A DNA stretch of 64,000 nt from contig JADYZM010000025.1 of assembly GCA_020853105.1 (NCBI GenBank), forward strand, positions 62,001 to 126,000. The letters are read 5' to 3'. The translations under genes were made by a program, and so were the position numbers. Shown one piece after another: positions 37,791 through 43,417 of the stretch. This DNA is from Flavobacteriales bacterium. Its GTDB lineage: Bacteria > Bacteroidota > Bacteroidia > Flavobacteriales_E > Vicingaceae. The number at the start of each line of letters is the position of its first letter. Positions within the stretch are counted from its first letter, which is position 1. The notes beneath the pieces were generated by a model. That model was not told the origin of the DNA and searched no databases. It worked only from the letters and a program-made list of their open reading frames with translations.

Positions 37791-38852
37791 ATGAAAACGT
37801 ATTTGAAAATAGCATTCATCGTTTTATTTTTATTACCGATAATATTTTTTGGACAAATACCGCCCGGATATTATAACGGTACTTCCGGATTAACAGGTCA
37901 AGCTTTAAAATTCAAATTACACGATATTATTTCAGCAAATACAAACTCACTTTCGTATAGTGATTTATGGACTGCCTACAACACAACCGATAAAAAATCA
38001 AATGGAAAAGTTTGGGACATGTATTCTGATTTACCTGGAGGAACACCACCATATTCTTTTACTTTTTCTACTGACCAATGTGGAACTTATAATTCTGAGG
38101 CAGATTGTTATAACCGCGAACATTCAGTTCCGGCAAGCTGGTTTAATGATGCTGCTCCCATGTACACAGATTTATTTCATGTTGTTCCAACAGATGGATA
38201 TGTAAACAATAGAAGATCTAATTACCCATTTGGAGAAGTGGGTTCAGTGTCTTGGACATCACAAAATGGTTCAAAACTTGGAACAAATACCTTTCCTGGT
38301 TATGTAGGTACTGTTTTCGAGCCAATTGACTCATTTAAAGGAGATTTTGCACGAATTTATTTTTATATGGCTACACGATACAAAGATGAAATTCCGTCGT
38401 GGAGTTCTCCTTCATTTAGCACCTCAGATTTAACAACATGGACAAAAAATATGATGCTTGAGTGGAATTCCTTGGATCCTGTAAGCCAAAAAGAAGTAGA
38501 TAGAAACAATTCGGTTTATACCCTTCAAAACAACAGAAATCCTTATGTGGATAGTGTTCAATGGATAAATGAAATATGGGGGTATCCGTTGAATGCAGTT
38601 GAAATTAATAATTCAAAAAATTATTTTGTATTTCCAAACCCAACTACAGATATATTGAATTTAAATTTGGACAACATACAAGGACAATCTTCTTTTTCCA
38701 TTTTTTCAACTGATGGAAAGCTTTTGCTAACAGAAAAAAGAGTAGGGGGTAATCATCAAATTAATGTAAAGAATTTTGAAAGAGGTTTATACTTTTTGGT
38801 AATTGAAAATCAAGATAAAAAATTCTTCGAAAAAATACTTTTAGTTAAGTAA
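37791..38852 (+). CDS. Secreted endonuclease I family nuclease with T9SS sorting domain
   Basis: 353 residues. Signal peptide MKTYLKIAFIVLFLLPIIFFGQ. The nuclease domain carries CYNREHSVPASWF (from residue 106) and DLFHVVPTDGYVNNRRSNYP, the His/Asn-containing motifs of the endonuclease I (EndA/Vvn) family, which cut DNA and RNA unspecifically and depend on disulfides; two Cys lie nearby (DQCGTYNSEADC). The last 75 residues form a type A T9SS sorting domain (YFVFPNPTTDILNLNLD, FERGLYFLVIENQ, KFFEKILLVK). It should act outside the cell, for example to use extracellular DNA. It ends at a shared terminator. Confidence 0.92.
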   Translation: MKTYLKIAFIVLFLLPIIFFGQIPPGYYNGTSGLTGQALKFKLHDIISANTNSLSYSDLWTAYNTTDKKSNGKVWDMYSDLPGGTPPYSFTFSTDQCGTYNSEADCYNREHSVPASWFNDAAPMYTDLFHVVPTDGYVNNRRSNYPFGEVGSVSWTSQNGSKLGTNTFPGYVGTVFEPIDSFKGDFARIYFYMATRYKDEIPSWSSPSFSTSDLTTWTKNMMLEWNSLDPVSQKEVDRNNSVYTLQNNRNPYVDSVQWINEIWGYPLNAVEINNSKNYFVFPNPTTDILNLNLDNIQGQSSFSIFSTDGKLLLTEKRVGGNHQINVKNFERGLYFLVIENQDKKFFEKILLVK

Positions 38853-38856
38853 AAAA

Positions 38857-38890
38857 AAAGAATCTCATTTTACCTAAAATGAGATTCTTT
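38857..38890. terminator. Bidirectional terminator between convergent genes
   Basis: A 16 bp perfect inverted repeat (AAAGAATCTCATTTTA and its complement) around a two-base centre CC, with A-tracts on the left and T residues on the right, separates the endonuclease gene from the modular surface protein. Confidence 0.88.
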
Positions 38891-38905: not shown

Positions 38906-41314
38906 CTATTTCTTAATAAACTTCACATTTTCTCCATTCTCGCTTTGGATAAAGTATATACCTGTAGCAAGTGTACTAACATCAATAGAGTTTTTACCGG
39001 TCAGAAGTTTTTTCTCTACTATAGTTTCACCTAAAATTGAAACAATTTTAATAGAAATATTATTATTTGTTTCAATATTTAAAATTGAAGATACCGGATT
39101 AGGATACAATCTAAACAGATTATCATTTTCCAATTGTACTACAGAAACATTAGTAACAGAATAGCACGATGATGTGTCTGTACAATTATTTTGTAAAACT
39201 TCAACGGCATAGTTTCCATTTTGAGTTGCTGTAAAGGATTGATTTGTTTCTCCGTTAATAACTGCATATCCGTTATCACAATCCAACCATTGATAGGTAG
39301 CTCCTGTTACATTAGCTGTTAAGATTGTAGAATTTTGTGTTACAGAAACATCAACTGTATTTATTGTCAAATTCAATGTAACGATACTGTCGCAACCAGC
39401 CGCATTGGTTAAAATGTGAGTAGCAGTATTGTTGTTGGCTGTATAAGTGTTCCCATCTATCCATGTGTAAGAATTACAAGCTGTTATTACATCAGTGCTG
39501 CTAGAAGCATAATTAATTGTTGCCAAAATCGTCAACAAACTATCACAACCCCATTGATTAGGAATGGTATCGTAATATGTCCCACTTGTAGTAAAGGTGT
39601 AATTGCCACTTGGCGAGGTATAACTGTCGCAGGTAGTAATAGCAAACGAATGAGCAGTATTTCCTGTTATAAAAATGGCTGTTTGATAAGTGCTGTCAGC
39701 CAATGTAAGGGTATCGATAACCGTCAGACTTACTAAATAAGAACCGGGCGTATAATAACTGTGCGTTGGAGTTGCAGTTGTATCGGTTGCTCCATCGCCA
39801 AATTCCCAAAAATATGTATCACCATCTATACTTAAATCAGAAAACTGAACCGTAGTTGAATCGCAACTTGCTTGTGGTGTATATGCAAAATTTGCAATGG
39901 GTAAGGAAATTTTCTCAACTGAATCAGCAACAACAACGCTCCAATGTTGCAAGGTATCTTTAAACTGAAAATGAACTTGGTGCATTCCTTTTGCAATTTG
40001 AGTCATGTCCAAATTATCCATCACATTTACCTGCTGATTGGCTGTAAGAGGCATATAAACAGCGTTTGCAAAATCATTGTCGAACCAATAACGATAGCCT
40101 ACCACTTGGTTTTGCACTACCGTTTGCTGTGCAGACTTATAGAAAAAACTACTAGCCACACTGCTCCAAACATTCAAATTATCCTTGAAACGGATATTGA
40201 AGGTATGTATTCCGCTTGGAATAGCCGACATGGAAATCAATTCATTTACATTCACTTGTTGTTGTGCAGGCGTGCTAACGGCTACAGCATTTGCAAAATC
40301 GTAGTCTAACCAATATTCATAAGCAACAACGGTCGGGTTTGGATTGTTGCTGATAGCAGAAGTTTTATAGAAGAAACTACTGGCCACACTGCTCCAAACA
40401 TTCAAATTATCCTTGAAACGGATATTGAAGGTATGTATTCCGCTTGGAATAGCTGACATGGAAATCAATTCATTTACATTCACTTGTTGTTGTGCAGGCG
40501 TGCTAACGGTTACAGCATTTGCAAAATCGTTGTCTAACCAATATTCATAAGCAACAACGGTCGGGTTTGGATTGTTGCTGATAGCAGAAGTTTTATAGAA
40601 GAAACTACTGGCTACACTGCTGTAAACGCCGTTGTTATCAAACGAACGAAAATTGAACGTATGGATTCCTGAAGTTAATCCGCTTGTGGAAACCAACTGA
40701 TTGACAACTAATTGTTGTGTTGGAGCAACAGGTGTAGTTGTTTTATTTGCAAAATCATTGTCAAACCAATATTCGTAGCCGTTGATTAAGTTAACTGTTA
40801 GTATTTCTAAGTCATCAATAATAATTTCACTTGCATTAGTTATGTCGTTTACAACAAACACAATAGATGAAACTGTTTGATTAATAGATAGATTAATAAG
40901 CCGTGGTGAGGCGTCGGCACTACCACTATTTACAGGTTGTGCTCCTAATCCCACAGTACTTAACGCAACACCATCTAAAAAAACTTGACCCTGCGAACCC
41001 CAGTTTCCATAAATTTCCATTTCTTTCCATTTGATAGAATAAACGTAAGTGGGTGCTGGAAAAGTTATTGTTAGCGTTGTTTTGTAAACATCGAAACAAC
41101 TTGAGGAACAGGTAGATTTTCCAAATCCAAATACGTTGCTGCTTCCAAAACTGTTGTTTGCCTTAATTCCCGGTGCAGAACTGAAAGTGCCTACAGAGCT
41201 AAAACTCATGAATGGATGTAATCCTCCTGATTCAAATCCCTCATTAATAACTCCTTGCGCAAAGCTAGTTATTGAGATAAAGATTGAAATAATTATCGTT
41301 AAAATATGTTTCAT
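38906..41314 (-). CDS. Modular surface protein with four tandem modules, PKD domain and T9SS sorting domain
   Basis: 802 residues. Order: signal peptide (MKHILTIIISIFISITSFAQ); a jelly-roll-like region (about 21-175); four modules of about 76 residues, each starting near YEYWFDNDFAN, with IPSGIHTFNIRFKDN in the middle and ending WSSVASSFFYK (about 178-480; the last is more diverged and ends differently); a PKD domain (FAYTPQASCDSTTVQFSDLS and YFWEFGDG); two short Cys-containing repeats (TTCDSYTSPSGNYTF and TACNSYTWIDGNTY); an Ig-like part (YQWLDCDNGYAVINGETNQS); and a type A T9SS sorting domain (LYPNPVSSILNIET, GIYFIQSENGENVKFIKK). Last gene of a three-gene leftward operon with two beta-helix proteins. 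Likely cell-surface binding; function unknown. Confidence 0.85.
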   Translation of the reverse strand: MKHILTIIISIFISITSFAQGVINEGFESGGLHPFMSFSSVGTFSSAPGIKANNSFGSSNVFGFGKSTCSSSCFDVYKTTLTITFPAPTYVYSIKWKEMEIYGNWGSQGQVFLDGVALSTVGLGAQPVNSGSADASPRLINLSINQTVSSIVFVVNDITNASEIIIDDLEILTVNLINGYEYWFDNDFANKTTTPVAPTQQLVVNQLVSTSGLTSGIHTFNFRSFDNNGVYSSVASSFFYKTSAISNNPNPTVVAYEYWLDNDFANAVTVSTPAQQQVNVNELISMSAIPSGIHTFNIRFKDNLNVWSSVASSFFYKTSAISNNPNPTVVAYEYWLDYDFANAVAVSTPAQQQVNVNELISMSAIPSGIHTFNIRFKDNLNVWSSVASSFFYKSAQQTVVQNQVVGYRYWFDNDFANAVYMPLTANQQVNVMDNLDMTQIAKGMHQVHFQFKDTLQHWSVVVADSVEKISLPIANFAYTPQASCDSTTVQFSDLSIDGDTYFWEFGDGATDTTATPTHSYYTPGSYLVSLTVIDTLTLADSTYQTAIFITGNTAHSFAITTCDSYTSPSGNYTFTTSGTYYDTIPNQWGCDSLLTILATINYASSSTDVITACNSYTWIDGNTYTANNNTATHILTNAAGCDSIVTLNLTINTVDVSVTQNSTILTANVTGATYQWLDCDNGYAVINGETNQSFTATQNGNYAVEVLQNNCTDTSSCYSVTNVSVVQLENDNLFRLYPNPVSSILNIETNNNISIKIVSILGETIVEKKLLTGKNSIDVSTLATGIYFIQSENGENVKFIKK
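40161..40616. repeat. Two tandem 228 bp repeats within the modular surface gene
   Basis: Unit 1 (40161-40388) and unit 2 (40389-40616) are in register and differ at four positions only, each encoding one 76-residue module. The flanking modules are related at protein level but not at this DNA identity. A recent tandem duplication or unequal crossover is the simplest explanation. Confidence 0.93.
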
Positions 41315-41334
41315 AATACAAAATATTAATAATA

Positions 41335-41403
41335 TTAATTTTCTTGTGCTGCCACTTTAATTTGTATCTGCAAATCGCCGTTGGTATCGGTTGTGGGAGC
41401 AAT
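41335..41403. repeat. Near-identical gene ends, copy 1
   Basis: These 69 bp, coding for the last 22 residues and stop of the paralogue at 41335, match 42367-42435 with only three differences, while the bodies of the two genes are strongly diverged. This suggests gene conversion or strict selection on the C-terminal tail. Confidence 0.9.
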
Positions 41404-42342
41404 ATTAATCATTTGAATATGCGGATTAAAAGGAACTGCACCTTCTTTGAATGGTGATAAACCGCCATAAATTCCCACTTCTGTGCCGTCGGCTCCTAAA
41501 TATGTTGTAGGGGCTTGCAAATGAAAATTATTCACAAAATAATTTAGGGGATTTGACCATGTAAAGTTTACAAAGAAGTTTGTTTCTGAAACGCTTGGAT
41601 AATTATTAATCCAATTGTTATCAAGCCCTCCGATTGGATTGTTCATTACATTATTTTTTAATGTATTGTTTTGTGAATTTGAAGCTGTAACTCCTCCTCC
41701 TGTGACAAAAATTATATTATTTTCTATTAAGCTGTTTGATACTCCTGTAAAAACACTATATGACCAATGATGGTAGGTTTTAAAAATAGTATTGTTTGCT
41801 ATCCAAGAATTAGAAAAATTACTCACTGGGTAATAGTCCGCTGATATAATGTTATTTTTAATAACAGCATTTGTACTTCCTGAGCCATCTAGTCCTCCGT
41901 TTATAACACATCCTTCAACAACAAGATTATTAACAAGAACTGTTAAAGAATTTTTGATATAACATCGTTTAATGGTAATTGAGTCACTTGTACCTACGTT
42001 AGATATTGAACCATCAACATACAAGCCTTCTAAATGGATGTTTTTTGAGTTTGCAGCTATTCCGAATGAGGCGAGTACTGTTTGATTTGTAGCTGTGGTT
42101 GAATCCGGATGAAATCCTGCCCCGATGATGGTAATTTCTTTTGCCAGATTAATACCTGGATAGTATCCACCAGTTAAATAAATGGTGTCGCCATTCACTG
42201 CGGCATTATATGCATCTTGATACATATTAATTCCGCCAAACATTGTAGCAGTACCGTTGTGATGAAGTGCTGCTTTTCTTTGTGCCTGTGCTGTTAATCC
42301 GATTAAGCTTACAATAGCGATTAAAACGATTTTTGTTTTCAT
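41335..42342 (-). CDS. Secreted right-handed beta-helix protein (paralogue 2)
   Basis: 335 residues. Signal peptide MKTKIVLIAIVSLIGLTAQAQ. The mature chain begins RKAALHHNGTATMFGG, then AYNAAVNGDTIYLTGG, and continues with Asn-rich beta-helix coils (ITIIGAGFHPDS, IHLEGLYVDGSISN, ITIKRCYIKNS, NAVIKNNIIS, NSLIENNIIFVTGGG, NNTLKNNVMNN), a pectate-lyase-like fold. No catalytic residues of lyases are seen. The end, VGIYGGLSPFKEGAVPFNPH followed by IQMINIAPTTDTNGDLQIQI and KVAAQEN, is nearly the same as in its neighbour and is not a type A or B T9SS domain. It lies 20 bp before the modular protein gene. Surface or matrix role inferred. Confidence 0.82.
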   Translation of the reverse strand: MKTKIVLIAIVSLIGLTAQAQRKAALHHNGTATMFGGINMYQDAYNAAVNGDTIYLTGGYYPGINLAKEITIIGAGFHPDSTTATNQTVLASFGIAANSKNIHLEGLYVDGSISNVGTSDSITIKRCYIKNSLTVLVNNLVVEGCVINGGLDGSGSTNAVIKNNIISADYYPVSNFSNSWIANNTIFKTYHHWSYSVFTGVSNSLIENNIIFVTGGGVTASNSQNNTLKNNVMNNPIGGLDNNWINNYPSVSETNFFVNFTWSNPLNYFVNNFHLQAPTTYLGADGTEVGIYGGLSPFKEGAVPFNPHIQMINIAPTTDTNGDLQIQIKVAAQEN

Positions 42343-42366
42343 GATATTTATTTTTTAGATTATCAA

Positions 42367-42435
42367 TTAATTTTCTTGTGCTGCCACTTTAATTTGTATC
42401 TGCAAATCGCCATTACTATCGGTTGTGGGAGCAAT
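42367..42435. repeat. Near-identical gene ends, copy 2
   Basis: Partner of 41335-41403: the first 45 bases are identical, then three differences in six bases, then 18 identical bases. Confidence 0.9.
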
Positions 42436-43374
42436 GTTTTTTTGCTGAATGTGCGGATTTGAAGGAACAGCTCCTTCTTTATATGGGAAAGTTCCGCCAT
42501 AAATACCAACCTGAGTTCCGTCTGTTCCTAAATAAGTTACAGGGTTTTGCAAGTGATAGTTGTTCGAATAGTCAAAAGCTGCTCCTGTTTGATTTACAAA
42601 AATATTGGCTTGCGGAATGTTTGTATAATTATTAAGTGCTGTAAAAGTAGTACCATAACTTGGAGCAGCATTCACAAAAACATTGTTTTGAAATGTATTG
42701 CCATTACCACCCCAATTGGTAGTACCATGTAGTATTATATTGTTATTAAACGTATTGTTGTTTCCGCTGCCAAAATTACAATTGCCCCACGAACAGTATG
42801 AGGATAAAATAATATTGTTTTGAATGATGTGCCCATTTGTGTTAGCGGCAAAATAACCCAAAATACTATTAGCGATTAATGCGTTTACTACATTTTCCAA
42901 ATTAACTGTGCCACTGATAGCATTATTAATAAGTGAAAGATTCTGTGAAGGATTTGACGAGCCTGTTGCAGCGAAATCATTCATGCGACAAAAACGAACA
43001 GTAACATTATCTACAGCTTGATTAGCTGTAAAAGTCAAGTTTCCATTGATGTCAACTCCTTGTATCATTGTGTTGTCGGCATTGTCTGACAACGTAATAC
43101 CCCCTTGAATAAATGTTTTCCCTGTAGCCATCGTAGAGTCCACATAATGTCCTGTACCAAAAATCATCAACTGCTTGTCGAAATTAGAGGGTGGCGTAAA
43201 ACTCCCGCCCGAAAGATAGAGCGTATCGCCATTTTGTGCAGCAGTGTAAGCTGTGTTCAGGGCAGTATTGCCTTTGAAAATTTGCGTTCCGCTTGTGGAA
43301 TGGAGCGCGACGATTTGTGCATTTGCCGTCATAGCGGCTGCTGCAGTTGCCAAAATCAAAAGTGTTTTTTTCAT
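42367..43374 (-). CDS. Secreted right-handed beta-helix protein (paralogue 1)
   Basis: 335 residues, the same length as its downstream neighbour. Signal peptide MKKTLLILATAAAAMTANAQ. It has the same plan: IVALHSTSGTQIFKG, AYTAAQNGDTLYLSGG, then Asn-rich coils (MIQGVDINGNLTF, VTVRFCRMND, LSLINNAISGTVNLE, HIIQNNIILSS, NTFNNNIILHG, NTFQNNVFVN) and the tail VGIYGGTFPYKEGAVPSNPH with IQQKNIAPTTDSNGDLQIQI and KVAAQEN. First gene of the three-gene operon with a promoter box 36 bp upstream. Conserved beginnings and ends with a variable middle suggest related surface structures. No enzyme activity can be claimed. Confidence 0.82.
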   Translation of the reverse strand: MKKTLLILATAAAAMTANAQIVALHSTSGTQIFKGNTALNTAYTAAQNGDTLYLSGGSFTPPSNFDKQLMIFGTGHYVDSTMATGKTFIQGGITLSDNADNTMIQGVDINGNLTFTANQAVDNVTVRFCRMNDFAATGSSNPSQNLSLINNAISGTVNLENVVNALIANSILGYFAANTNGHIIQNNIILSSYCSWGNCNFGSGNNNTFNNNIILHGTTNWGGNGNTFQNNVFVNAAPSYGTTFTALNNYTNIPQANIFVNQTGAAFDYSNNYHLQNPVTYLGTDGTQVGIYGGTFPYKEGAVPSNPHIQQKNIAPTTDSNGDLQIQIKVAAQEN

Positions 43375-43409: not shown

Positions 43410-43417
43410 CAAAGTTA
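43410..43417 (-). promoter_or_regulatory. TAnnTTTG -7 box for the beta-helix/surface operon
   Basis: On the minus strand TAACTTTG ends 35 bp before the ATG of the first beta-helix gene, giving a leader of about 30 bases for the three-gene transcript. Confidence 0.55.

Follow-up and report, generated by a model that had tools for sequence, protein, structure and literature searches.

A near-obligate pair of beta-helix and modular type IX secretion genes in Bacteroidota, with a proposed hairpin-to-module docking mechanism

Strand-completion docking and multi-module scaffolds are both known from other systems. Donor-strand complementation, as in chaperone-usher and type V pili, fills in an incomplete immunoglobulin-type domain with a strand of another protein. 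In cohesin-dockerin scaffolds, one protein carries repeated receptor modules and another a small C-terminal docking element. Here we describe a locus of three leftward genes in a 64,000-nucleotide stretch of a Flavobacteriales genome (contig JADYZM010000025.1, positions 62,001 to 126,000; the window). Genes 1 and 2 encode secreted beta-helix proteins (P0002 and P0001), and gene 3 a modular protein (P0003) with a sorting domain of the type IX secretion system (T9SS). The two families are almost always paired in many Bacteroidota, and their products may dock to each other by strand completion.

The likeness to donor-strand complementation lies in the proposal that one protein contributes a strand element to an incomplete module of another. 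Here, however, that element would be a hairpin of two strands at the C-terminus of a beta-helix protein, the recipients would be fibronectin type III (FnIII)-like modules of a T9SS protein, and no chaperone, usher or pilin is seen in the operon. The array of modules on a scaffold and the small C-terminal docking tail recall cohesin-dockerin systems, but the beta-helix proteins bear no dockerin-type element, docking is proposed to proceed by strand completion and both partners are encoded in a single operon. With T9SS cargo (Por_Secre_tail, TIGR04183) the scaffold shares a signal peptide and a sorting domain, whereas its beta-helix partner lacks the latter and is nevertheless strictly paired with a sorted protein. 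The modules give Y_Y_Y matches in some partners and an FnIII-like fold in a model, but occur as arrays in a surface protein that is paired with a beta-helix. Finally, the beta-helix proteins share their fold with PL6 lyases and NosD, from which they differ by an added conserved C-terminal hairpin and by the lack of a recognised enzyme family for most members. The pieces of the system are of known kinds; as far as we could see, it is their joining to T9SS that would be new. No description of the pair was found in the full-text literature searched, a coverage that leaves out subscription papers and preprints, nor in the passages of a T9SS effector review that answered a term search (PMC10202324).

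The beta-helix and module genes form a near-obligate pair. A profile of the beta-helix family was positive in 63 of the 396 class genomes sampled, and in 59 of 60 neighbourhoods from this sample the next gene downstream, on the same strand, is a module gene; the lone exception is 400 bp from a contig edge. A module gene also adjoins most of 17 weaker beta-helix matches, one of which is a fusion; among those without it, three lack the conserved C-terminal tail described below and three others are fragments. In named genomes, some of them shared with the class sample, loci were picked by the beta-helix alone: a single-protein query returned none and a narrow alignment query 79, of which 74 could be assessed. 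The module gene adjoins the last beta-helix gene on the same strand in 73 of the 74 (median gap 5 nt), and in the exception (L166; L numbers denote loci) module sequence occurs ~700 bp further on. A phylum-wide sample added 18 loci, nearly all from other classes, of which 17 agree. Modules are present in 20/20 genomes with the beta-helix vs 1/24 without (Fisher p 1.2e-11), and in the single module-positive, beta-helix-negative genome the module gene proved to be preceded directly by a divergent beta-helix gene whose tail is similar. Seven further complete module genes located away from strong beta-helix matches are likewise preceded by a beta-helix gene with such a tail (7/7). A sequence-only reading of the window had proposed a multi-component surface structure or adhesin set; the former is well supported, because adjacency is near-absolute within and beyond the class, and the opposite outcome, families that are rarely neighbours, is decisively contradicted by these counts.

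Of 57 complete operons, 38 contain a single beta-helix gene. The three genes of the window are therefore better regarded as two types of component, a scaffold and one or several beta-helix proteins. A conserved third component was sought and rejected, since no neighbour family recurs in more than 12/104 upstream or 5/86 downstream neighbourhoods. A large sensor-like gene of the type 'SDGLSSNRINAIVQDVDGFIWVGTDEGI' lies upstream of the pair in 12/104 loci (e.g., L082, 7169-10306); this may point to regulation, or may be fortuitous, as genes of this sort are common. An origin in phages or plasmids was likewise rejected, since phages, plasmids and viral contigs gave no match. Among the carriers are Flavobacterium paronense, Winogradskyella, Jejuia, Labilibaculum, Mariniphaga, Sunxiuqinia and Lacihabitans. 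A divergent subfamily of the pair (L193, L195-L199) has tails such as ...G.TLNIKANAFDR and modules of the DGNFNDALE type. The pair was also seen in records labelled Candidatus Delongbacteria and Alphaproteobacteria (L171, L187), which are probably misbinned Bacteroidota contigs, or cases of transfer.

Export signals are divided unequally between the partners. A T9SS sorting domain is found in 0/85 aligned beta-helix proteins and in the product of neither gene 1 nor gene 2, whereas module partners carry one of type A (TIGR04183) in 40/45 and of type B in 3/45 cases. P0003 scores 49.3 bits against PF18962 (cut-off 27) and 41.4 bits against TIGR04183 (cut-off 23). In some partners, those at L082, L094, L126, L163, L165, L178 and L191, dockerin-like or 'coathanger'-type C-termini replace the type A domain. 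The T9SS sortase PorU was detected in the host genome of the window (G000). A set of 80 chosen genomes was uninformative, all being PorU-positive, and the full class sample was used instead: PorU occurs in all 63 beta-helix genomes, and 33 of the 396 class genomes are without it (p 0.0025). The T9SS translocon lets folded proteins through (PMC9251779), so that a docked passenger might be exported.

The C-terminal end of the beta-helix proteins is most likely a docking element. P0001 was modelled confidently by AlphaFold as a right-handed beta-helix that ends in a hairpin (mean predicted local distance difference test, pLDDT, 93), and P0002 is assigned the same fold by homology. The two are 43% identical overall; identity rises to 88% over the C-terminal 32 residues and falls to 27% in the core. 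The sequence-only reading had taken both the conserved ends with divergent cores and the equal length of the two proteins as meaningful. The former is borne out across the family; the latter carries no weight, since paralogues elsewhere differ in length and the equality is a coincidence. In the family, the tail comprises ~30 conserved residues at the extreme C-terminus (roughly P.IP.I...G.L.V.VKA..). Paralogues of the same operon retain 68% tail identity at a core identity of 33%, and their tails reach a mean percentile of 0.88 relative to core-matched pairs from different loci (p 1.6e-7), vs the 56th to 70th percentile for other segments. In six same-locus pairs that do not precede a common module gene, the tail percentile is 0.43. 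Tail-less beta-helix relatives have a module neighbour in 0/4 cases; in one of them (L227, 5784-7751, + strand) additional domains and a T9SS-like C-terminus of its own take the place of the tail.

The modules of gene 3 start at residues 180, 256, 332 and 407, a period of 75-76 residues; across partners, modules of ~60 residues are separated by linkers of 15. In most partners the first module follows soon after the signal peptide, and the N-terminal domain of P0003 is absent from most homologues. A 228-bp repeat of about 98% identity (window positions 40137-40621) records a recent in-frame duplication of a single module (modules 2/3), and the length of the array is therefore still changing. 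The Y_Y_Y family scores 22.9 bits in P0003, below the Pfam cut-off of 26.6, and is matched by modules in 9/45 partners. A sequence search of solved structures gave no convincing relative of the modules. In modelled structures the modules look like FnIII domains that begin at strand C, strands A and B being absent.

Two lines of evidence link the tail to a module. The first is a natural fusion (L097, 1233 residues), in which one frame runs from beta-helix through tail and one module to a T9SS-like C-terminus, the tail leading into the module without an intervening signal peptide. The second is a tethered model, in which the neighbouring genes of L172 were folded as one chain, the stop codon read as glycine and the signal peptide serving as linker. 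Module 1 of this model has strands 368-375, 383-390, 392-400, 407-417 and 426-432 (C, C', E, F and G); module 2, with no tail beside it, is without an equivalent of 392-400 (E). Foldseek returned tandem FnIII pairs among the first matches to the model (E near 3e-4), and in a VIA-align search all matches were taken by the beta-helix, leaving the modules uncovered.

The following mechanism is proposed. Component A is a secreted right-handed beta-helix protein, encoded by one to three tandem genes, without a T9SS signal and with a short conserved C-terminal hairpin. Component B, encoded directly downstream, would be an array of FnIII-like modules lacking strands A and B; in most cases further domains and a T9SS sorting domain follow. 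The two missing strands would come from the hairpin of A, which would thus complete the fold of a B module, and B would thereby display A on the cell surface and possibly carry it as a passenger through the T9SS translocon. The module array would act as stalk and socket, and the beta-helix body as the variable outward part, either a binder of glycans or other surfaces or a structural tip. We give this two-component reading as a whole, in which the hairpin completes a module and a T9SS scaffold displays the beta-helix, a probability of roughly 0.6.

Several points weigh against it. The completion of a module by the tail hairpin is modelled, and the artificial tether in the L172 model favours contact. 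Only the best of five tethered models is clearly good (pLDDT 89 vs 81-84), the pairing of tail and module was read from strand assignments, for which an internal hairpin of module 1 is an alternative, and the template-modelling scores of the FnIII matches are low, about 0.24-0.33 by target and given by Foldseek without aligned ranges. The fusion stands alone, none other having been found in 44 further genomes of the same genus. In a partial Mantel test the coupling of tail and module distances does not exceed that of body and module distances, and the result is therefore not counted as support. The numbers of beta-helix genes and modules are uncorrelated (rho 0.04), so that one-to-one occupancy of modules is unsupported. 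Extra tailed beta-helix genes lie 3' of the module gene in L178 (11300-12334) and L051 (6562-7764, - strand); in L051 and in one L178 pair the tail of the extra protein is unlike that of the upstream paralogue. The near-obligate gene pair, the divided export signals, the conserved tail and the fusion are observed; co-export, surface display, adhesion and the role of the beta-helix are steps that we infer.

An obligate surface complex could also form with the tail packed elsewhere, on its own beta-helix, on another beta-helix, on the sorting domain or on another part of the partner. In favour of this, P0001 modelled alone already shows a confident hairpin, and the remaining genetic evidence is compatible with whatever contact the tail makes. 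Against such contacts, the tail in the L097 fusion leads straight into the module, the modules appear to be without the very strands that a tail would supply, strand E appears only in the module adjoining the tail, and the module is the sole partner feature common to all. Packing elsewhere is accordingly judged unlikely, although it deserves to be kept in mind.

The beta-helix might be a polysaccharide lyase or other carbohydrate enzyme on a T9SS anchor, a possibility that is compatible with docking. The nearest solved fold to P0001 is a PL6 alginate lyase (7dmk_A; Z 20.3, root-mean-square deviation 2.9, 250 residues aligned), other near folds are carbohydrate-active beta-helices, a profile match to 7dmk is weak (E 6.6e-5), and display at the surface would suit an enzyme. 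However, the lyase match may reflect just the shared beta-helix fold. Lyase family models do not match P0001, and most members of the family match no enzyme family. The conserved positions, mainly glycine, asparagine-ladder and cap residues, look structural, and the only widely conserved basic residues are R126 and K68. An enzymatic role is given a low probability, and a binding or structural role is preferred by inference. That the two genes are neighbours merely through a common transcript and a shared cell-surface destination, with proteins that never touch, is very improbable: near-absolute pairing over several classes, a fusion, the joint loss of tail and partner and a tail similarity confined to paralogues with a common partner would all be hard to explain without contact.

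Returning to docking of the hairpin into a module, a further step can be put forward tentatively, with less than even confidence: the T9SS scaffold may be a series of incomplete-FnIII sockets, each for the C-terminal hairpin of one beta-helix protein, through which a single sorting domain exports several beta-helix passengers that lack a T9SS signal and presents them as interchangeable heads on one stalk. If the two-component reading is true, it offers a function-level handle on two unnamed families of Bacteroidota, present in about one in six of the class genomes sampled. Proteins without a T9SS signal would be displayed, and perhaps exported, via a partner, and lists of T9SS-dependent proteins based on sorting domains would therefore be incomplete. 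The pair would also be a natural two-part socket and plug, in which the heads vary and the plug is kept.

The features of the locus are collected in Table 1. As the sequence-only reading had described, the three leftward open reading frames comprise 335, 335 and 802 codons with gaps of 24 and 20 nt, and the four YEYWFDND modules, the PKD domain and the sorting domain of gene 3 were all found.

Table 1. Coordinates of the paired genes, their domains and adjoining signals (positions are those of the window).
Feature	Position	Strand	Evidence
Gene 1, secreted beta-helix P0002, 335 aa	42367..43374	-	signal peptide, no T9SS sorting domain
Gene 1 C-terminal tail, residues 304-335, proposed docking hairpin	42370..42465	-	sequence comparison
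Gene 2, secreted beta-helix P0001, 335 aa	41335..42342	-	AlphaFold pLDDT 93, predicted template-modelling score (pTM) 0.90
Gene 2 C-terminal tail	41338..41433	-	modelled beta-hairpin, strands 308-318 and 324-331
Gene 3, modular scaffold P0003, proposed T9SS export, 802 aa	38906..41314	-	open reading frame plus domain matches
Gene 3 N-terminal domain, residues 21-175, no family assigned	40790..41254	-	sequence
Module 1, residues 180-242	40589..40777	-	
Module 2, residues 256-318	40361..40549	-	
Module 3, residues 332-394, recent duplicate of module 2	40133..40321	-	98% DNA identity
Module 4, residues 407-470	39905..40096	-	
PKD domain of gene 3, residues 472-543	39686..39901	-	PF18911 E 3.3e-14
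T9SS type A sorting domain of gene 3, residues 736-802	38909..39109	-	PF18962 E 6.3e-13, TIGR04183 E 1e-10
TAACTTTG, Bacteroidota -7-like box 5' of gene 1	43410..43417	-	weak evidence
15-pair hairpin with T run 3' of gene 3	38857..38890	-	likely terminator

The TAnnTTTG box previously noted ahead of the operon does exist, but it says little: 109 copies of the motif lie in the window vs 113 expected by chance, and because its frequency is at chance level the box is weak evidence for a promoter. The hairpin and T run at 38890-38857 are likely the terminator behind gene 3. The upstream flank of the operon is an ordinary lumazine synthase gene. On the other side, convergent with gene 3, lies a gene of the endonuclease I family with its own T9SS sorting domain (37791-38852, + strand).

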